This document shows, piece by piece, positions 11,680-24,869 of a stretch of 25,117 nt of DNA. Both the position numbers and the translations under genes were made by a program. Under the pieces are notes generated by a model. The model was not told where the DNA came from and made no database searches. It saw only the letters and a list, made by a program, of their open reading frames with translations. How positions within the stretch are numbered: the first letter of the stretch is position 1; each line of letters opens with the position of its first letter. Source of the DNA: a virus. The DNA lies in the IMG/VR virus record IMGVR_UViG_3300005882_000020, positions 1 to 25,117 of that record, one strand, 5' to 3'.

Positions 11680-13299
11680 TTAAACAGTTAGTACCCAACG
11701 TATTTTTCCGGAATCATAATACCTTGCATATCCTAATTCTTGCATTAGCTGCCATTCTGTTTTATTCTCAACGTCTACTCCAAATCGTTTCGCAATTTTT
11801 GCTTTCATGTACTTTTGACGATTTTCTAAGTGTTTAAAATCATATGTATACCAATAAGCTGACTTAAATATTTTGTCAAGTTTAAATCCTGCTTGCTTAT
11901 ATAAATTGCCGTTGCTGTGATCGTTATTGCTAAATGAAACAATGTCGCCCGTGTGGCCTGTTTGCTTAATCATTGCTTTTAACATTTTACTAAAAAGACC
12001 CGGATAACTAGCTTTTCGATCACATACATATCTTGTTATTTCTAAATATTTTGGTCGCGAGCGCCAATTAATTACTGCTACCAAATTACCATTGTAATAT
12101 GCGCCAAGTGCATTATCACGAGCTAGCAAACGACCTTGTATGTGATTTTCATCTACAAATTTAAGTTCTTGTTCTGTTGTCACTTTATCGATTACAACTT
12201 TTCTTGCACCAATAACAGTGTTAATATGACCTACCATATACATTAGCTTTGACTTAATAACGTCAAAATTATTATTTAGATCTGCATCAGTATAACTTAG
12301 TAAAGTTACACCTTTGTCTCTACACTGCTTCCATTTTTCGTAGTGATAGTCTTTATCTCTAAATGCGGGCGATGCTGTGCTGTGCCAATATATTCCGTTA
12401 ATCTCTATAGCTAAATTATAGTCAGGAATGTAAAAGTCTACTTCTTTTGGTTTAATGAGCATCCTGTCATTTTTTATATATTCAACATTTAACTCTTTTA
12501 ATAAATTTTCCAATTTAAGTTCTGTACTAAACGAAGTAAACTCGTATTCAATGTTATGGCGATGTATTGCATTATACACAGAAGTTGGATTTAAATTGTA
12601 TTCTTCGGCTATCTGCGATGGTGTTTTACTTTTTAGTTCATTGCTAAGACGTGCTTTTTCTAAAACACTTACATCGCCTTCTGTTGTTAGTTGTGGGTAT
12701 GCAACCACACCGTATTTAGCAATCATTGTCTTTCTTGCTTTTTTTGGGTTATTGTAGTCTGGGTCGCCGTATTTTTCTTTTTTTGTTTCTTTTGCTTTTT
12801 CTATATTATTATAATTCGGGTCGCCGTATTTTTCTTTTTTTGTCTTTTTCAATTTGGCGCGAATACTTTCGCATTTCATTGGGTGGCCGTTGTACTTTTC
12901 TTCGAATGTTTCTTTTGTTTTTAAAATGTGTTCTTGTGTTCCTGCAAAAGTTTTTGACCCGTATCGTGTTATATTAGTGGCTTCTCTCTTTTTGGTTACA
13001 TCTGGAACTTTTTGTGTACATTGTTTGGAACAGGCTACGCCGTACCCAGTTAAGCCCCACTTTAGCTTATTATTACAATCTGGGTTTTTGCAAACAGGAA
13101 TTTCAAATACGCTATTTTCTATATGCCAAATTCTTTGTTTCCAGGGTGCATCAGCGTTAAGGAAAGTTGTTAGATCTAGTAATTGTTGTTTTAAGTCTGT
13201 TAGTCCTTTTTTAACCCACCACGAATCTTTATTAATGTTTACATTAATTCTTGTTTTGCCGTATAAGTGTTGCTTTATTTGTTGGAGTAGATCGTCCAT
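11680..13299 (-). CDS. Free-standing homing-endonuclease-like protein, 539 aa
   Basis: The start is ATG at 13299 with only a weak purine run (AAAAGAAAA). A late promoter lies at 13342-13349. A probable zinc finger carries Cys70, Cys75, Cys90 and Cys94. Tandem DNA-binding-type repeats at about 101-200 share [KE]TKKEKYGDPxYNN. A helix-turn-helix segment (SKTPSQIAEEYNLNPTSVYNAI) spans about 224-246. A Vsr-like/PD-(D/E)xK-type nuclease core spans about 256-340 (FSTELKLENLLKEL, KPKEVDFYIPDYNLAIEINGIYWHS). The C-terminal region (about 360-490) has FVDENHIQGR, LGAYYNGNLVAV, YLEITRYVCD and HSNGNLYKQAGFKL, the pattern of GNAT-like domains often fused to phage endonucleases. It probably cuts DNA to spread its own gene. 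Its site between gp23 and the membrane genes is not a T4 core gene position, so it is likely a mobile insertion. The nuclease class is inferred. Confidence 0.75.
   Translation of the reverse strand: MDDLLQQIKQHLYGKTRINVNINKDSWWVKKGLTDLKQQLLDLTTFLNADAPWKQRIWHIENSVFEIPVCKNPDCNNKLKWGLTGYGVACSKQCTQKVPDVTKKREATNITRYGSKTFAGTQEHILKTKETFEEKYNGHPMKCESIRAKLKKTKKEKYGDPNYNNIEKAKETKKEKYGDPDYNNPKKARKTMIAKYGVVAYPQLTTEGDVSVLEKARLSNELKSKTPSQIAEEYNLNPTSVYNAIHRHNIEYEFTSFSTELKLENLLKELNVEYIKNDRMLIKPKEVDFYIPDYNLAIEINGIYWHSTASPAFRDKDYHYEKWKQCRDKGVTLLSYTDADLNNNFDVIKSKLMYMVGHINTVIGARKVVIDKVTTEQELKFVDENHIQGRLLARDNALGAYYNGNLVAVINWRSRPKYLEITRYVCDRKASYPGLFSKMLKAMIKQTGHTGDIVSFSNNDHSNGNLYKQAGFKLDKIFKSAYWYTYDFKHLENRQKYMKAKIAKRFGVDVENKTEWQLMQELGYARYYDSGKIRWVLTV
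12761..12843 (-). repeat. 57-bp tandem repeat inside the endonuclease gene
   Basis: A 26-bp sequence is identical at 12761-12786 and 12818-12843, offset 57 bp (19 codons). It encodes the repeated TKKEKYGDP unit. The repeats are in frame, so copy number can change without frameshift. Flanking copies of the same protein motif are more diverged. Confidence 0.85.
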
Positions 13300-13412: not shown

Positions 13413-14585
13413 TCAGAAGAATGTCAATGTAGCTGGGTTAATACCTACTTTGCTTAGGTAGTCAGCCGCGTTACCGAAAGAGTTCGCAGTGTTAGTTAAC
13501 TCTACATAACCGTAACGTGTCATGAAGCTAACCACTGGCTCTAAGGTATTAGGATCTAGGATCGGTCCAGTGCTCATCAATGGAATGTATGGGCAATAGA
13601 ACGCAGCCGCGTCAGTTTCGGTGTTACCTTTGTAACCAAGTAATACAGCTTCTGAATCAGCAGCATACTGGTCAACATATACTTTCATAGTATTGTTTAG
13701 AACACCTGCCAACTTAGTGTTAGTTGGTGCTTCAAACTGACCTTCAGTAGTACGTGCAAAGCTAGAAGTAGTAGCAGATTGCAAAATAGTCAATGCTGTT
13801 GGTGAAACAACTGCCCAGTTAGCAGCTGAACGACGTGTACGAGCAGCTACTAAGTTAGCTTGTTGGTTGATCATTACAGCTAGTGCAGCGTGTTCGTCAC
13901 CAACGTAAGTAGCAGTACCAGAAACCGCAGCTTGGTCATAAGTTACAGGAGCAGCACCTGCCAAGTTACGCATTTTGAATAGCATTTCTTGGTCGATTTC
14001 AACTGTAATTTCTTGAGCTAAAGCTTGCATGATTTCTGCTTCAATGTCGATGCCATGAACTGCATCAGCGTCTTGAGCAGCTTCAAAAGTCCAACGAGCA
14101 GATAGCTTGCGTGATTTAGCTTCTACTGTTTCTTTTACGATTTGGATTGACAAACGGTTACCTGGGTTACCTTCTAAAGCCGCAGTTGATCCAGCAGCTG
14201 GTGAAGCATCAACGTCGTTACCAGAGTAAGCACGAGCAATGTCAAAAGGACTAAGTGCTTCAGTACCTGCTGTAACGCCGTCTGCTGTGTCAGCATAGCG
14301 TACACGCAAGGTGTGGATTTGACCCACAGGACCAGTCATTGGCTGTACACCCATGATGTCGTTTGCAATAACAGTAGGCATAACACGTCGAATCAGCGGA
14401 AGCATTACTTTGTTAATTGAAGCAATGTTACCTGCTTGTGTTGCGCCTGCTGTTGCGCTTTCTTTCAACATAACTTTGCGTGTATTTTCATACACTTTAT
14501 CTAAGTTAGCTTTACGAGCACCAGACAACCCTTCTAAGAGTGCTTCTTTTGTCTGTGCCCAGTTTTTACCTTCAAATAAGTTCAT
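13413..14585 (-). CDS. 23: Major capsid protein gp23, 390 aa
   Basis: The start is ATG at 14585, with AAGGAGT about 8 nt upstream. It is the hexamer-forming shell protein of T4-like heads. Diagnostic segments are KVMLPLIRRVMPTVIANDIMGVQPMTGPVG near 60-88, then LRVRYAD, and near the C-terminus YCPYIPLMSTGPILDPNTLEP and FMTRYGYVELT. It follows scaffold gp22 by 16 nt and ends at a strong terminator, matching T4 order 21-22-23. At 390 residues it is shorter than T4 gp23 (521). In T4-like phages gp21 removes an N-terminal peptide after a hydrophobic-x-Glu motif; Leu40-Lys-Glu42/Ser43 is a candidate site here. Several alanine/serine-rich loops have reduced insertions relative to T4. Confidence 0.95.
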   Translation of the reverse strand: MNLFEGKNWAQTKEALLEGLSGARKANLDKVYENTRKVMLKESATAGATQAGNIASINKVMLPLIRRVMPTVIANDIMGVQPMTGPVGQIHTLRVRYADTADGVTAGTEALSPFDIARAYSGNDVDASPAAGSTAALEGNPGNRLSIQIVKETVEAKSRKLSARWTFEAAQDADAVHGIDIEAEIMQALAQEITVEIDQEMLFKMRNLAGAAPVTYDQAAVSGTATYVGDEHAALAVMINQQANLVAARTRRSAANWAVVSPTALTILQSATTSSFARTTEGQFEAPTNTKLAGVLNNTMKVYVDQYAADSEAVLLGYKGNTETDAAAFYCPYIPLMSTGPILDPNTLEPVVSFMTRYGYVELTNTANSFGNAADYLSKVGINPATLTFF

Positions 14586-17449: not shown

Positions 17450-20404
17450 CTATTCTTCGCCTTCTACGTTATCATCGACGACATTGTCTGTGTCTACGTC
17501 TTCTATATCTTCATCAGCAAATTCGTCATCGTCAAAGTCACCGAGATCGCTGGACATGTTTTCGAAGTCTTCTGCACCTGGCGGTACAACGCCTACATCT
17601 CGTATGTCAGCACTTGTTTTGGCTGTGTTTGCATTATTTTCTTCTGCCCATAGCTTTTCGTTTTCTTTAACTTCTTCTTCAGATAGTCCTAGATATTTTT
17701 TTACTGCGAACCGCTTACTAATAAATCCAACATCAGATATAGATGTAAAATTATTAATTCTTGCCGAATCAAGTTCAATTTGTCTGTACTTACTAAAGTT
17801 TTGTGGCTCGTTAAATACTATTTCAAACATACTAGTATCGATGCCACTGTGCCCTTTAAACTTCAAATATTTTTTAAATTCTGCGTCAAATACATCAACA
17901 ATTTTGTTTTGGTGTCGCTGACATGTTTTACTGAATCTAAACTCTTGTATAAATGCTGTTCCTACGCGACCATCATTGTAACTTGCAGATCCATCTTCAG
18001 GTCCTGTAGGTAAGTATGAACTAGGAACACCTAACGCTCGCATCATTTTATTATTAAAGTAGCGCAAATCATCTATTTCGCCCATGTTTTCGCCGCCGGG
18101 TAAAGTTGTCACGTCACTTCCTCGACCGTCGGAAGTTTGAGCAAAGTAATAATCTTCTAACATACTATTTTTGACAAATATACCTGCTTCAAGAGCAAAA
18201 GTGTGATGTTTATGCCAGCGTTCTTGGAAGTCAACTGTAATTGTTCCTACGTCGCGGTTTTCAACTTTTTCGATTTTAGAAATTCGATGATTATACACTG
18301 CTGTTTTTTCTTTAAAATCTCTCCAGTTCTTATATCCGTATTTCTCATACATGATCTTTAACTTGGAATCAGTAAATACATCATTCTTAACATTTTGCGT
18401 AGACTTAGGATTTACTGGGTTTGCTTCTCTCATTAACGAAATAAAGTTCTTATCTTGGTTAAGTAACTCAATAGTCTCTAAACGATTACTGTCATTCTTT
18501 TTAACAGTTTCAACAACATAAGTTAGCATATCCTGTGTAAAATTAAAAGTTTGGTTTTGAGTTCGTTTCTTTGATAGTACATCTTTGCCTTGCTCAATAA
18601 ACTTCGCTTTGGCTTCAGGATTATTTTTTAAATATTCGCTACGTGATTTTCCGCTTTTTGCGAATTGTTCTTTCCTAATATCTGGGTCAATGTTGCTTAG
18701 AGCTTCTTTGATTTTATCCGAATGTCCTTTGTAGCAATCTTTCCAATTAGGGTTATTTTTGCGATATTCTTCTAAACCTTGACGTATTTTATCTTTGACA
18801 CGTTCTGCTTCTTCGTCGGAAATGTTTTCCCAGTATTCCTTTTTATTTAGAACATGAAAACGCTTATGATCTTCGAAACTCATCCAAGCAAGATTACGAG
18901 GATCATTATTATAACGATTGTAATCTTTGTGATGTACAGTATCCTTGTCTAACTCTTTTAACTTTTCATCAAATATCATTACTTGATGCTTTTCCATGTC
19001 TTTAAAAAATTCAGCGACTACTCGGTGAACATATTTCCATGTATTGTCACTATGGTCAAATACTTGAGTATAGCTTCTGTTTTTATCATTTGACAAACTT
19101 TTTTCGCGTGTTTCGAAACTAATTAACGGATCGTCGGCAGTCAAATCTTGTGCTTCAACAAAACCTTTACCTAACACAGGAATTTTATGATCCGGTGTAC
19201 AGATAATTTCTTTGCCATTATCTAACGTAATTTTAATTGTTTCGGCATCTTTTCTTGTAATTCCTGCCCATGTAATGTTACCTGGCATTATTTTACCAGT
19301 AATAGGATCTGTACTATATACCCAGTTTTCTTTACCTTGTTGGTATTCATTAATTAATTCATTTAACTCTAGCGTTCTGCCATCTAATAACGGAATACGT
19401 GTAGATAAGTCTAAGCACATCGGATTATATGCAGCATCTGTTACTGATGCTCCGCCGCCGTTCTTACTAGGAATGCGTTTTTGTTGAACTTCGTATTTAA
19501 CACGTTCGATATATTGTGCTGCTTTGTGCGGAGGCATTGTTCCTACATCAATTTTAAATACACGTCGCTCGGGTGCTCGGTGAATACGATATATTAGAAC
19601 ACTATCTTCGATAAGTTCTTTTTGTTTGTATATTTTAAATATCGGCTCTAATACACTAACACCAAACGGCCATGCGTTATCCATTCCTTCTGTTAAGCTA
19701 ACTTGAACAACATGTTCTGCATCAATCGGAACTGATTGTTCTGCTGCAACATAGCCTTGTCCTGTTGGCATGTTATGTGCAGTTGTGTAATTTGGCTGTC
19801 CTGGGTTTGGCGAGGACTTAAAGCCTCCAGAGCTATGGAATCCTGCAGGAGTTGTTTTTGATGTATCGGACGCAACAAGAGACGTTAAATTAAGGTCAAG
19901 ATTTTTAATATAATATTGCTCTATTTTTTTACCTTTGCTTTCGTTAACAATAACTTTTTCAACATTCTCTTGGCTTACCCATAGCAACTTAAAAGTTTCA
20001 GGATCTCTTATGAAAAACTGATCACCGTATTTAAGTGTTGACCGGAACAGCCGGAACATTCTTTTAGGAAATTCGTTGATATAGCACCATTGCATCAATA
20101 CATTTTCTAAAACTGACAGTTCGCTTTTAGATGGCTCTTTTTTCCATCTAATACTAAACGGCAAGCCTGTACGAGAATCTAATTGTGTGGAAAATTCTGC
20201 AATTGTGTCGAGAGCTGCATTAATTTCATGGTCCATGTCCATTTGATCGTATTGCACATATCGTTGCAAGCGATTAGGTGGCCCTTGATATACTTCTGGC
20301 AACCAGTTGCTAAACTTTGATGTTGCTGCCACAATACCGGGCGAAGTAACACCATTGCCTTGTGTTACTGTTTTGACGATTTTAAAATGCTTTTTCCACG
20401 ACAT
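17450..20404 (-). CDS. 20: Portal vertex protein gp20 interrupted by an intein, 984 aa precursor
   Basis: The start is ATG at 20404, with AAGAGGT upstream, 13 nt after the stop of the tape-measure-like gene. gp20 forms the dodecameric DNA entry ring and nucleates head assembly. N-extein residues 1-329 include PEVYQGPPNRLQRYVQYDQMDMDHEINAALDTIAEF, RLFRSTLKYGDQFF and SVLEPIFKIYKQKELIEDSVLIYRIHRAPERRVF, all typical of gp20. The C-extein (747-984) begins SMLEDYYFAQTSDGRGSDV, then LPGGENMGEIDDLRYFNNKM and VPSSYLP, and ends with an acidic tail. Removing residues 330-746 rejoins AAYNPM to SMLEDYYF, the uninterrupted motif of other gp20 proteins, leaving a 567-residue mature portal (T4 gp20 has 524). 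Downstream are the gp67-slot and gp68-like genes. Confidence 0.95.
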   Translation of the reverse strand: MSWKKHFKIVKTVTQGNGVTSPGIVAATSKFSNWLPEVYQGPPNRLQRYVQYDQMDMDHEINAALDTIAEFSTQLDSRTGLPFSIRWKKEPSKSELSVLENVLMQWCYINEFPKRMFRLFRSTLKYGDQFFIRDPETFKLLWVSQENVEKVIVNESKGKKIEQYYIKNLDLNLTSLVASDTSKTTPAGFHSSGGFKSSPNPGQPNYTTAHNMPTGQGYVAAEQSVPIDAEHVVQVSLTEGMDNAWPFGVSVLEPIFKIYKQKELIEDSVLIYRIHRAPERRVFKIDVGTMPPHKAAQYIERVKYEVQQKRIPSKNGGGASVTDAAYNPMCLDLSTRIPLLDGRTLELNELINEYQQGKENWVYSTDPITGKIMPGNITWAGITRKDAETIKITLDNGKEIICTPDHKIPVLGKGFVEAQDLTADDPLISFETREKSLSNDKNRSYTQVFDHSDNTWKYVHRVVAEFFKDMEKHQVMIFDEKLKELDKDTVHHKDYNRYNNDPRNLAWMSFEDHKRFHVLNKKEYWENISDEEAERVKDKIRQGLEEYRKNNPNWKDCYKGHSDKIKEALSNIDPDIRKEQFAKSGKSRSEYLKNNPEAKAKFIEQGKDVLSKKRTQNQTFNFTQDMLTYVVETVKKNDSNRLETIELLNQDKNFISLMREANPVNPKSTQNVKNDVFTDSKLKIMYEKYGYKNWRDFKEKTAVYNHRISKIEKVENRDVGTITVDFQERWHKHHTFALEAGIFVKNSMLEDYYFAQTSDGRGSDVTTLPGGENMGEIDDLRYFNNKMMRALGVPSSYLPTGPEDGSASYNDGRVGTAFIQEFRFSKTCQRHQNKIVDVFDAEFKKYLKFKGHSGIDTSMFEIVFNEPQNFSKYRQIELDSARINNFTSISDVGFISKRFAVKKYLGLSEEEVKENEKLWAEENNANTAKTSADIRDVGVVPPGAEDFENMSSDLGDFDDDEFADEDIEDVDTDNVVDDNVEGEE
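18167..19417 (-). mobile_element. Intein with HNH homing endonuclease in gp20 (Cys330-Asn746)
   Basis: It encodes 417 residues that should splice out of gp20. Block A is CLDLSTRIPLLDG with Cys330 as nucleophile. Block B contains ICTPDHKIPV with the T-x-x-H signature (Thr403, His406). The C-terminal splicing region has VGTITVDF, then HHTFALEAGIFVKN ending in Asn746, and the +1 residue is Ser747. The usual penultimate histidine is replaced by lysine (VKN). The middle holds an HNH nuclease: VHHKDYNRYNNDPRNL (His491, His492, Asn500, Asn504) and EDHKRFH (His513, His517). About 190 lysine-rich residues follow that look like DNA-binding modules, including GLEEYRKNNPNWKDCYKGHSDKIKEAL. The reading frame is intact, so both splicing and homing may be active. 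It interrupts a highly conserved portal motif, the usual choice of inteins. Confidence 0.9.
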
Positions 20405-20417
20405 TTGCTATACCTCT

Positions 20418-23003
20418 TTACAATGTTCCTGCTTGTCTGTCTGACTCGCGCTTTGCTTGCTTCATACGTTCTTTTTGCAATCTTACTTGTTCTTCTTGGA
20501 GCGCGATAGAACGTTTTTGTAGCTCGATCTTCTCTCTTTCAAGTAAAAGTTTTTCTTTTAATTGTTTTTCTTTATTTATCTTTGCTTTAGCAACATCGTT
20601 CGGTTTGGTGATATCATCTTCGTCGTGTGTTGCATTCCAAATAGATTCGCCAATAGACGACCCTATGTTTTCTAACACGTTTCCTATTGTTGACTTTGTT
20701 TCGTCATAAATCTTTCTTGTGTTTAATGTGTCAAATGATAAAAAGTCTATTAAATCAGCTGCGCTGCCGATGACGCCATCGAAAAATCCTTCAGCACCCG
20801 ACTTTAAGCCAGTTAAACTCGACAACACTGTGTCTCCACTGCTTTTTAATGTTTCCATAAAGTCTGTGACGCCAGATGTTATTCCTTCGTACATGCCATA
20901 AATTGCTGTGACGCCTGGTATTTTTTTAATTAATGATTTACCACCTGACATCAATTTGTCAACTGGTATTTTAGATATTAAATTCTTTGTTGCAGAAAAC
21001 CCTTTAGTGATTACATCTTTTCCTACTTGTAAAGCAGAGCCTATCATATTTTTAGTTGCGGAGCCTGCAGTCTTTAATACATTAAACACTGATCTTCCTG
21101 CACTAGCTGTTACATCTTTAGCAGTCACTAAGCCTGCTTTTGCTGATGTTGCAATTTTTGACATTACATTGCCGGTGCCTGCTTTTGCTTTTATTGCAGC
21201 ATCTTTCATAGAGCTTGTCATTCTTCTAAATCTGCCACGACGTCGAGCTCTTGGTTTGCCTTTGCCTTTTTTGCCGCGGCCGTCGCCGCCTGCATCAAAC
21301 CCGCCCGTGGTGTTTCCGTTAACAATCACTGTTCCTGCATTGATGACTTTGTTAGAGAAAAACCCTGCTAATTTACTAGCACCTAATATTGCAGCAACAC
21401 CGCCAAGTGCTAAACCTATGTCAGTCCACGATATTTTACTAATTGATTTAACTATATCAGCTAATTTTTCGCCAAATTTACTTACAGTTGCTAACACATC
21501 GTCAACATTATCACCAAATTGTCCAAGGAATGACGAAACAAAACGATCTTTTATAGTCGATATACTGTCAGTAAATTCTCGCATTTTTGCAAGCTCAGCT
21601 TCTTTTCTTAAACGCTCTTCTTTTGCAAGCTTTTTAGCTTCGTCAAGCGATATTCCTCGTTCTTTGGCGATTGCTCTTGCTCTTGCAAGATTAGCTTGCT
21701 CAACTGCTTGCTGTGTTTCGCTTTGTGCTTCGGCGCTTTGCTTTGCTTGCATTACTGCTTGCAACATGCTGGCAGCGGCCTGGTTATTTCCTGCTACTAA
21801 AGCTCGCAAGCGGTCTGTGTCTGCTTCGCTTAAAGCTTTTAATAATCTTTGCTCAGCTTTTCTTCGTTGCTCGCCAACTAATGTGCCAGACTTAATTCCG
21901 TTTGCAAATTCGGCCATTTGTGTTGCAACATTGCCCATACCTGCTTGTACCGCTACTTGGAATGTGTCTGTCACTTGGGGCGCGACAGATCCTACCATTT
22001 CAGTTAATGCGTCAGCTAAATATGGACTAGCTGCGGTAAATGTTGCAATTGATTGTTCAAACGCTTTCCTTGCATTAACAGGCAACGATCGTAATGTTGC
22101 TTGTATCATTGGGTCGTCAAATGCTGTTGCTACACCATCTAATATTTTTTCTTTTGAAACACCAAACGCAACCGATAACTGTTTAGAACTTAGTGCTAAT
22201 TCAGACATACTTTTGCGTGTGTTTGCGTTTTGTATTGTGTTAAACAACCCTAGCTTTCTTTGATTGTCAAGATATTGTGCTGCATATTCTGCAGATTCTT
22301 TTGTTGTAAAACCGTATACTCTTAGATTTTTTGACACGGTGTTAATGTTCTTACTAAGCCCTTTTGCAGACGTATTAAACACCCTAGCATATTGTGTTGC
22401 CATTCCAGTAAACTCGTCTAAAGACATGTTTAGTGATGTAGATGTTTTTATTAAGTTAGAAAGGCCGCCTGTTACATATACACCGCTATTTGACAAATCA
22501 GAAAATGTTTCTAATGTATTCATTACACTAGCTGCAAGAACACCTGCGGTACCTGCCACTAACCCTAAGCTGGCGGCAGCCAATGCTGATCTGCTACTTA
22601 CAAATTCAAAAGCAGGAGAAAGCTTACCCATTTTATTTGACATCATGTCATTGAATGACGATAATGCATTATTAGGCAAGTTAGCAGCAAACATCTTTAT
22701 ATTCTGTGTTGCTGTGCCATATTCCTTAATATACTTTTTTTGTTCTTCTGTTAAATCTTTAAAACTATTGACAGAATTCGAAACTGTTTTTACAAGTTTT
22801 TTAATTTCCTTTTCTTCGTCAACTTTAGACTTAGATGCTTTTTTAAAAGCTTCTTCTATTTTCTTTGAAACTTTTGCTAAATTGTCTTTTGTCTTTTTCG
22901 AAGGGTTGCCGGAGCCAAATGCGCGAGAATTTACAACTTCTTTTAGCGCGTCTGCTAATTCTTTTATTGATTGCCTATCTAATGCAACTATATTGTCTGC
23001 CAT
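20418..23003 (-). CDS. Tape-measure-like tail protein, 861 aa
   Basis: The start is ATG at 23003 with a poor ribosome site, downstream of a GATAAATA promoter at 23058-23065. The protein is mostly helical. There is a charged coiled coil at about 35-100, a first hydrophobic segment at about 137-162 (ALAAASLGLVAGTAGVLAASV) and a Gln/Ala/Arg-rich coiled coil at about 378-475. A second hydrophobic segment lies at about 527-549 and a very basic patch near 576-594 (GKGKPRARRRGRFRR). Glycine/alanine-rich amphipathic repeats fill 600-790, and a Glu/Lys/Gln coiled coil ends the protein (804-855). This mix is typical of tape-measure proteins, which set tail length and enter the host membrane. It is not obviously homologous to T4 gp29 by eye. 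The adjacent gp26-type gene supports a tail role. An internal head protein is the main alternative. Confidence 0.6.
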   Translation of the reverse strand: MADNIVALDRQSIKELADALKEVVNSRAFGSGNPSKKTKDNLAKVSKKIEEAFKKASKSKVDEEKEIKKLVKTVSNSVNSFKDLTEEQKKYIKEYGTATQNIKMFAANLPNNALSSFNDMMSNKMGKLSPAFEFVSSRSALAAASLGLVAGTAGVLAASVMNTLETFSDLSNSGVYVTGGLSNLIKTSTSLNMSLDEFTGMATQYARVFNTSAKGLSKNINTVSKNLRVYGFTTKESAEYAAQYLDNQRKLGLFNTIQNANTRKSMSELALSSKQLSVAFGVSKEKILDGVATAFDDPMIQATLRSLPVNARKAFEQSIATFTAASPYLADALTEMVGSVAPQVTDTFQVAVQAGMGNVATQMAEFANGIKSGTLVGEQRRKAEQRLLKALSEADTDRLRALVAGNNQAAASMLQAVMQAKQSAEAQSETQQAVEQANLARARAIAKERGISLDEAKKLAKEERLRKEAELAKMREFTDSISTIKDRFVSSFLGQFGDNVDDVLATVSKFGEKLADIVKSISKISWTDIGLALGGVAAILGASKLAGFFSNKVINAGTVIVNGNTTGGFDAGGDGRGKKGKGKPRARRRGRFRRMTSSMKDAAIKAKAGTGNVMSKIATSAKAGLVTAKDVTASAGRSVFNVLKTAGSATKNMIGSALQVGKDVITKGFSATKNLISKIPVDKLMSGGKSLIKKIPGVTAIYGMYEGITSGVTDFMETLKSSGDTVLSSLTGLKSGAEGFFDGVIGSAADLIDFLSFDTLNTRKIYDETKSTIGNVLENIGSSIGESIWNATHDEDDITKPNDVAKAKINKEKQLKEKLLLEREKIELQKRSIALQEEQVRLQKERMKQAKRESDRQAGTL
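20573..20580 (-). promoter_or_regulatory. Possible internal late promoter for gp20, GATAAATA
   Basis: Exact GATAAATA on the minus strand inside the 3' coding part of the tape-measure-like gene, 169 nt before the gp20 start. It encodes part of AKINKEK, so codon content alone could explain it. The spacing is longer than for the other promoters. Confidence 0.3.
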
Positions 23004-23090: not shown

Positions 23091-23954
23091 ATGAGTACAA
23101 ATAACCCGTTACAGCAATTTTATCGTAGAGAGAAACTTTATGTTCCTTTGCCTAGCAACGGAAAATTTTACGACGATGGTGTTGTAGAACTTACAAGCGA
23201 CGGCGAAGTTGGTGTAATGCCAATGACTGCTGCTGATGAAATTTTATTTAAAAACCCAGATATGCTTTTAAACGGCGAAGCAGTTAAGCGTGTAATTGCA
23301 AGCTGTGTTCCAGCTGTTAAAAAGCCAGAAATGTTGTTGTCAAACGATGTTGACACACTAATCATTGCAATTAGACATGCAAGCTTCGGCGACACACTTG
23401 ACGTTGTTGCAGATTGTCCAAAGTGTGATCACGAAAATACGTTTGCTTTGTCAATGGAAAACACACTAAGCCAAGTTGAAAAATTGGAAGAAAGCTATCC
23501 AATTAAAATACTTGATTCAGTTGTAGTATATGTTCGTCCATACAACTTTTCTGAAAGTTTAAAAAGCATTAAGAAAAGCTTTGAGCAGTCAAATGCACTT
23601 AAACACTTAGAAAATCCTAGCTTATCAGAAGAACAAAAACTAAAAATGATAGGTCAAAGTGTTGACATTTTAGCAAAACTAAACTTCGATCTTGTTGCAG
23701 ATGCAATTATTAAAATTGAAGCACCAGGCGACAACGGTGAGACAGTTACAGTAACAGACAGACAAATAATTAAAGACTTTATTGCTAACATCGGAAGAGA
23801 TGAAGCTAACAAAGTTCAAAGCAAAATTGAAGAAATTAATAACATCGGTATTAAAAAGGAGTTTACAGGTACATGTCAAAAGTGCAGCGAATCATGGGAT
23901 ATCCCAATAGATTTTAATCCTGCTACTTTTTTTACCGAATCCTTGCAAGATTAA
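23091..23954 (+). CDS. 26: gp26-type baseplate hub/assembly protein, 287 aa (zero-frame product)
   Basis: The start is ATG at 23091 (MSTNNPLQQFYRREKLYVPLPS), with AAAAGG 10 nt upstream. This is preferred to an upstream in-frame ATG at 23055, which lacks a ribosome site and would overlap the promoter region. The sequence matches the T4 baseplate hub gp26 family of marine phages: KLYVPLPSNGKFYDDG, VGVMPMTAADEILFKNPDMLLNGEAV and LIIAIRHASFGDTLDV. Two CxxC pairs (Cys109/Cys112 in DCPKC and Cys262/Cys265 in TCQKC) form a probable zinc site. At 287 residues it is longer than T4 gp26 (208). The last codons run through a T7 slippery site (23927-23933), and a -1 frame continues for 76 more codons. The zero-frame stop is TAA at 23952-23954. 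It is probably a hub component or tail-assembly chaperone. Confidence 0.85.
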   Translation: MSTNNPLQQFYRREKLYVPLPSNGKFYDDGVVELTSDGEVGVMPMTAADEILFKNPDMLLNGEAVKRVIASCVPAVKKPEMLLSNDVDTLIIAIRHASFGDTLDVVADCPKCDHENTFALSMENTLSQVEKLEESYPIKILDSVVVYVRPYNFSESLKSIKKSFEQSNALKHLENPSLSEEQKLKMIGQSVDILAKLNFDLVADAIIKIEAPGDNGETVTVTDRQIIKDFIANIGRDEANKVQSKIEEINNIGIKKEFTGTCQKCSESWDIPIDFNPATFFTESLQD

Positions 23955-24163
23955 ACCCAGATGAAATACGAGATCATTTAAAACGACTTAGAAAAGACCA
24001 AGAACTAATTGAAAACGATATCATCGACATAGTATATTTTGCAAGGATTAGTTGGACAGATGCATGGGGTTTGTCTGCTTTACAAAGAAAGAGAATTGCT
24101 AATCGCATAAGTAAACACATAAAGGCACAAGCAGGTGCCGCAGCAAAAAACATAGGTGAATAA
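23091..24163 (+). CDS. Predicted -1 frameshift fusion of gp26, about 357 aa
   Basis: The zero frame is read to Phe281, then ribosomes slip -1 at T TTT TTT (23927-23933) and continue from TAC at 23933 to TAA at 24161-24163. This adds 76 residues: YRILARLNPDEIRDHLKRLR, an amphipathic helix DQELIENDIIDIVYFARISW, then DAWGLSALQRKRIANRISKH. The -1 frame has a stop (TAA, 23915-23917) just before the slippery site and no ATG, GTG or TTG codon until deep in the segment (TTG at 24071). Independent translation is therefore unlikely, yet the peptide looks genuinely coding. Similar small frames after gp26 in marine T4-like phages are familiar to me as separate short proteins. The design matches phage tail-assembly chaperones such as lambda G/GT and P2 E/E'. 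The frameshift itself is inferred. Confidence 0.65.
23927..23933 (+). promoter_or_regulatory. Candidate -1 ribosomal frameshift site, T TTT TTT A
   Basis: Seven T in the phase X XXY YYZ relative to the gp26 frame (ACT TTT TTT ACC), which lets both P- and A-site Phe tRNAs re-pair after slipping back one base. A short potential stem follows (AATC 23938-23941 with GATT 23949-23952, enclosing TTGCAA). No strong pseudoknot or upstream Shine-Dalgarno stimulator is obvious. Confidence 0.65.
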
Positions 24164-24164
24164 C

Positions 24165-24674
24165 ATGGATGCAAAAAAAGAACTTGCTGGAATTTGTCCT
24201 ACTACCTTCCGCGAAGCTTGGGCAAAATACCCAAAACGAAGACACTTAACGCAAGCATCTAACGTGCTAGATTTTCAGAACTTTGAATGGGCGCCATTTA
24301 AAGACGAGCATTTCCATAGAGAAATTAAACTGTATACAGGCAGTGACAGCGATGCAAAAATTTATATTAACGCAAATGATGATATCCTTTTTACAGAATC
24401 TGTTATTTGCAAAGGTGAGCTAAAACGTGTCGAACATTACGATTCGCAGTACAATAAAATACTTCCTATTATTGGTGTTTTAGAATTAAAAATTGCCGCT
24501 TTTGTTTCTACATACTTTAAAAGAACATCATGCATCATTACAACAGAATCAGTAGGTGATTACATTACTGGCATATCATTGTTACCAAACTTTGAATACA
24601 TTAATAGTAAAAATGACAGAGCTGAGCTTGATGCAATTATAAAACTATATAAACGAAGAATGTGGATAGATTAG
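24165..24674 (+). CDS. Conserved-looking phage protein of unknown function, 169 aa
   Basis: The start is ATG at 24165 (MDAKKELAGICPTTFREAW), preferred to GTG at 24156 because AGGTG at 24154-24158 gives a good ribosome site 6 nt before ATG and the GTG lies within it. The ATG begins 1 nt after the stop of the frameshift extension, so translation is coupled to it. The protein is a mixed alpha/beta globular domain with YPKRRHLTQASNVLDFQNFEWAPF, IKLYTGSDSDAKIYI and LLPNFEYI. It has no membrane segment, signal peptide or obvious catalytic motif. In T4 the genes around 26 encode baseplate hub proteins (51, 27, 28), so a tail-hub or tail-assembly role is a reasonable guess, but no specific equivalence is visible. 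It is followed by a strong terminator. Confidence 0.7.
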   Translation: MDAKKELAGICPTTFREAWAKYPKRRHLTQASNVLDFQNFEWAPFKDEHFHREIKLYTGSDSDAKIYINANDDILFTESVICKGELKRVEHYDSQYNKILPIIGVLELKIAAFVSTYFKRTSCIITTESVGDYITGISLLPNFEYINSKNDRAELDAIIKLYKRRMWID

Positions 24675-24704: not shown

Positions 24705-24735
24705 AAAAAAGGTAACATTTTTGTTACCTTTTTTT
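24705..24735 (+). terminator. Bidirectional rho-independent terminator
   Basis: AAAAAAGGTAAC (24705-24716) pairs with GTTACCTTTTTT (24723-24734) around a six-base loop. Seven T follow the GC-containing part on the plus strand and six T on the minus strand. It ends the gp26 unit and could also terminate any minus-strand transcript entering from the right. Confidence 0.88.
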
Positions 24736-24869
24736 ATGATTACACTATATGTAATTACATGACTGGTGCAAAAATTCTTACCAAAAACCGAAAAGTGGGT
24801 CGCTTCCTTATTATTATTTTTATTTCTGGCATTTTAACCAGAGCGATGAGATATGCACTATTCATCTCT

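Follow-up and report, generated by a model that had tools for sequence, protein, structure and literature searches.

The gp26-like gene of the window, by which we mean the whole 25,117-nucleotide stretch of IMG/VR virus record IMGVR_UViG_3300005882_000020 analyzed here, closes shortly after a run of seven T residues, and a second reading frame remains open from that run well past the gp26 stop codon. The locus thus raises the question of whether the two frames are joined by a programmed -1 frameshift into a short and a long tail assembly chaperone, as the initial annotation had proposed, or whether the second frame is a gene of its own.

The gp26 gene and its phage

The gp26 open reading frame (positions 23091 to 23954, plus strand) runs from ATG at 23091 to TAA at 23952 to 23954 and encodes 287 amino acids. 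The predicted protein matches PF12322 (T4_baseplate) with an E value of 5.3e-19 (69.2 bits, cutoff 24.5) and phrog_150 (baseplate hub) with an E value of 1.7e-24. An AlphaFold model built with 27 relatives reached a pLDDT of 88, and its matches among the viral predictions of BFVD are T4-like baseplate hub assembly proteins, while a PDB search with the models of gp26 and of the extension described below found no solved structure alike. Profiles and structural matches together identify gp26 as a short tail assembly chaperone (TAC-N). Because the family is annotated "baseplate hub," its tape measure role is drawn from homology and genomic context.

The portal gene gp20, the major capsid gene gp23, and a prohead protease gene in the window mark it as part of a T4-like myovirus. 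Its nearest named relatives are the jumbo myoviruses PA5oct, Atu_ph07, Phosso, 121Q, RaK2, and XacN1; none of the named phages has a DNA-level match to the window locus, and the source of the window is a marine jumbo-type T4-like phage. Two possible mobile elements were also seen near the structural genes. The portal gene (17450 to 20404, minus strand) apparently carries an intein, with PF14890 (Intein_splicing) at residues 338 to 725 and hits to HNH endonucleases that fall within the portal match, and a gene for a 539-amino-acid homing endonuclease-like protein (11680 to 13299, minus strand; phrog_3339, E value 1e-77) lies directly after gp23 (13413 to 14585).

The divergent neighbor of gp26 (20418 to 23003, minus strand) encodes 861 amino acids and is a probable tape measure protein. 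It is long, with hydrophobic Ala/Gly-rich segments and a coiled C terminus, and had no profile match in PHROG or Pfam. Homologues lie equally divergent beside gp26 in two other loci (L109 and L106), in PA5oct (L002), and in RaK2 (L009), and the RaK2 copy is annotated as similar to tape measure protein.

A slippery heptamer and an open -1 frame

The zero-frame 3' end of gp26 reads GCT ACT TTT TTT ACC GAA TCC TTG CAA GAT TAA. It contains the slippery heptamer T TTT TTT (23927 to 23933, plus strand) over Phe280-Phe281, in the phase required for a tandem -1 slip, and the zero-frame stop is the seventh codon after it. The site claimed by the initial annotation was thereby located; the eight-base string given there (T TTT TTT A) is the heptamer plus the following base. 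After a slip, the first codon would be TAC at 23933, and from there the -1 frame encodes 76 residues and ends at TAA (24161 to 24163), so that the fusion would measure 357 amino acids. This extension (TAC-C; 23933 to 24163, plus strand) is preceded in its own frame by a stop at 23915 to 23917, it has no ATG, and its earliest GTG or TTG is codon 49, counting from 23927. The open frame, the upstream stop, and the want of a usable start codon were all read correctly at the outset. As a chance baseline, random-codon entry into the -1 frame of jumbo-type genes finds at least 70 open codons in 0.65% of cases, with a median of 5.

AlphaFold predicts the extension to be helical with a pLDDT of 92, and searched alone against Pfam, PHROG, and NCBIfam it belongs to no family. 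One nucleotide past its stop, as had been noted, an ATG at 24165 opens the next gene (24165 to 24674, plus strand; 169 amino acids), and homologues of this gene stand directly behind the extension in loci L106 to L119 and L124. Soon after the end of that gene, at about 24710 to 24736, comes a terminator-like hairpin with a T run behind it.

Conservation of the site and of the extension

Since the earlier reading called for an alignment of gp26 loci in related phages, two sets of relatives were compared. An IMG/VR scan with the window gp26 as a single protein returned zero relatives; the jumbo-type set was therefore assembled from 80 IMG/VR loci (33 to 44% identity) retrieved with a four-member alignment as the query and three further IMG/VR loci, to which the window and named phages were added, leaving 80 distinct gp26 genes after duplicates were dropped. 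The cyanophage-type set comprised 80 IMG/VR relatives (47 to 100% identity).

A canonical in-phase -1 heptamer occupies the same point in all 80 distinct jumbo-type genes, as T TTT TTC in 61, T TTT TTT in 5, and A AAT TTT in 14. In ten named jumbo phages, gp26 invariably ends in xxT TTT TT(C/T), with a -1 frame of matching length. Because the letters of the heptamer vary by lineage while it remains canonical, in place, and in phase, this pattern points to selection on slipping rather than on the Phe-Phe pair. A homologous -1 extension of 70 to 91 codons is present in 80/80 jumbo-type genes. At one further locus (L098; Stenotrophomonas phage IME-SM1), near position 1920, a run of five T residues is followed by a homologue of the extension that lies in the +1 frame instead of the -1 frame, and this arrangement is either an error in the record or a real variant.

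The arrangement reaches beyond the jumbo phages. The gp26 gene of cyanophage S-PM2 ends in TCT TTT TTC GCA TAA, with the annotated gp51 in the -1 frame, and T TTT TTC followed by one more codon before the stop was found in 80/80 cyanophage-type loci, the -1 frame again being "gp51." Among 63 distinct cyanophage gp26 genes, 48 alignment columns are invariant in amino acid, and the only ones invariant in codon are the two slippery Phe residues (TTT and TTC). The codon preceding this pair always has T as its 3' base, whether it specifies S, N, A, or D. The same T TTT TTC with a -1 extension was found in pf16, Asswx_1, ACP17, phi-pp2 (KVP40-like), and OLIVR6. Two Ackermannviridae, VP-1 (L101) and Kevin (L102), have GTT TTT C or GTT TTC at the end of gp26 in place of T TTT TTC; a homologous-looking extension still lies in the -1 frame, with an overlapping ATG in VP-1.

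These comparisons bear on the possibility that a small independent gene encodes the extension, with translation beginning downstream of the gp26 stop by reinitiation or at a non-AUG codon. Many public records do annotate it as a coding sequence of its own ("gp51/hypothetical protein"), and an ATG, GTG, or TTG lies near the beginning of the -1 frame in some relatives (26 of 55 cyanophage extensions, for example, have one at index 3). However, an ATG falls within the first 15 extension codons in only 13/80 jumbo-type genes, conserved residues are often lost when the annotated starts are used, the window itself offers no start before codon 49, and a separate gene leaves the codon invariance of the heptamer unexplained. 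We consider an independent start very unlikely. As far as homology can tell, the extensions of the window and its relatives are one conserved protein family with no conserved start codon, a point that the initial annotation had proposed to check.

RNA structure 3' of the site

A downstream RNA stimulator is a common, nonobligatory feature of frameshifted tail assembly chaperones. The 60 nucleotides directly 3' of each site were folded as pseudoknot-free structures and scored against shuffled sequences. Just 3' of the site, the median z-score was -2.5 in the cyanophages (75% below -1.5) and -2.0 in the jumbo types (62% below -1.5), and at the remaining offsets the medians ranged from about -0.95 to +0.3. 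The hairpins differ among lineages but share their distance from the site. Pair covariation was counted in two subsets of hairpins and turned up a single clear compensatory pair in A3 and none in A4; as covariation was weak, the predicted hairpins are supported by folding energy and position. Unlike most relatives, the window has no convincing hairpin 3' of the heptamer (z-scores of +0.5 to +0.8 for pseudoknot-free folds), and slipping in the window may be promoted by its run of seven T residues or by a pseudoknot. On the 5' side, a Shine-Dalgarno-like GAG GGN often occurs about 10 nucleotides before the heptamer in cyanophage loci (L015 to L094); its Glu codon is GAG in 39 of 52 cyanophage genes, against about 30% GAG gene-wide, which recalls the dnaX stimulator.

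A long form could also arise if RNA polymerase, rather than the ribosome, slipped on the T run. T runs can provoke such slippage, and that of the window is seven residues long, but the run is T6 ended by C in most relatives, and the 14 genes with A AAT TTT mostly have a five-T run, a short stretch for the polymerase to slip on efficiently. Strict codon phasing and the placement of the RNA structures suit ribosomal slippage instead. Slippage of the transcript thus appears improbable, at a level comparable to that of an independent start. Least probable of all is that a single fused gene has been split in the record by an error of sequencing or assembly: homopolymer runs are prone to error and a change of one base would fuse the frames, but the same out-of-frame layout recurs in about 160 other loci from many independent contigs and isolates, where the run is mostly ended by C (T TTT TTC).

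Relationship to T4 gp26 and gp51

T4 gp51 matches PF12322 with an E value of 3.9e-52, covers both PF12322 and phrog_150 over the whole profile, and matches phrog_634, the cyanophage gp51 family, at its C terminus. Because gp51 matches the gp26 family as well as phrog_634, T4 gp26 and gp51 are paralogues, and by these profile matches gp26 is the short form and gp51 is gp26 plus the extension, that is, the long form. Alignment of profiles with hhalign related the jumbo extensions to the cyanophage gp51/extensions (probability of 81) and the cyanophage extensions to the T4 gp51 C terminus (probability of 75), while jumbo extensions aligned directly with T4 gp51 gave no significant match (probability of 0.5). 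The jumbo extension would thus correspond to the T4 gp51 C terminus through the cyanophage extensions as intermediates.

T4 resembles the window in that its gp26 and gp51 both have matches to the gp26 family, with the extension at the C terminus of gp51. It differs in having a separate gene for each form, one on either strand, and in the end of its gp26 (GAG TTC TTT GAG), which lacks a slippery heptamer. The initial annotation had described the T4 region as separate genes without a frameshift; this holds for the slippery site, while the implied absence of a counterpart does not, gp51 being the paralogue with the extension. In a 2010 review, both proteins appear among the T4 hub assembly chaperones, and gp51 is described as essential, of unknown function, and not in the virion (PMC3004832).

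Proposed mechanism and comparison with known systems

The sequence arrangement, its deep conservation, the homology to T4 gp26 and gp51, and the codon constraint at the slippery site were observed directly. The best overall explanation, in which we place high confidence, is a programmed -1 slip that yields a short and a long form of gp26 as a tail assembly chaperone pair; the conserved heptamer, the extension family, and the stimulator position in relatives support this reading as it was originally put forward. Most ribosomes on gp26 would terminate at 23952 and release the 287-amino-acid TAC-N. A minority would slip by -1 on T TTT TTT with Phe-tRNAs in both the P and A sites, resume at TAC 23933, and produce the 357-amino-acid long form (TAC-NC) with its helical C-terminal domain. 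By analogy with gpG and gpGT of lambda, coating of the tape measure protein would fall to the short form and recruitment of tail tube subunits to the long form during tail and baseplate hub assembly. We infer the slipping itself and its rate from sequence, and the division of labor between the two forms and their partners by analogy.

Frameshifted T4-like tail assembly chaperones are a class known since 2022, and the idea is not new. The abstract of Vladimirov, Gautam, and Davidson (2022; Virology 566:9-15) reportedly names genes 26 and 51, and frameshifting is said there to be conserved in several T4-like groups. Those chaperones share with the window the same gene pair (gp26 as the short form and a gp51-type C-terminal part) and the same short/long logic. 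As far as citing papers relate it, they also share the poly-T slippery site near the TAC-N end; the window has the T TTT TTT site and no obvious hairpin. One of these papers, in its account of the 2022 work, ascribes poly-T signals for frameshifting to the TAC-N genes of T4-like phages (PMC12846349), and the PRFect paper, in the part that cites the same work, refers to T4-like phages in which the frameshift is replaced by two genes, one short and one long and fused (PMC10885494). Our literature searches, whose coverage did not extend to the text of the 2022 Virology paper, found no paper on a frameshift in jumbo-phage gp26.

The frameshifted chaperones of lambda (gpG/gpGT) and P2 (E/E') have slippery sequences that differ from that of the window and are likened to it by analogy. 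Vandenendeviridae and Andersonviridae are alike in having a -1 frameshift at a T-rich motif (GTTTTT) at the TAC-N end and in that the part beyond it has mistakenly been annotated as its own gene; they differ in phage group and in motif (PMC12846349). The VP-1 and Kevin sites resemble the Vandenendeviridae motif more than the window site does.

Implications for T4-like phages

Hundreds of records of marine and jumbo phages split what would be one recoded protein into "gp26/baseplate hub" and "gp51/hypothetical protein" or carry no annotation for its second part, and automatic annotation should therefore join the two. The value that remains beyond the 2022 class lies in the jumbo lineage, in the turnover of slippery sites, and in the annotation error exposed. 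In jumbo T4-like phages, the recoding signal may have turned over while the -1 shift was kept, with interchanged heptamers and hairpins that are unlike or missing; together with the two-gene version of T4, this might form a series from frameshift to duplication that is undescribed in giant phages, a proposal for and against which we find the balance even. The slippery sites and hairpins that vary at this one position among related phages are a ready set for studying what determines -1 frameshift efficiency, and the finding supports the view that T4 gp26 and gp51, essential and poorly understood, are short and long tail assembly chaperones.
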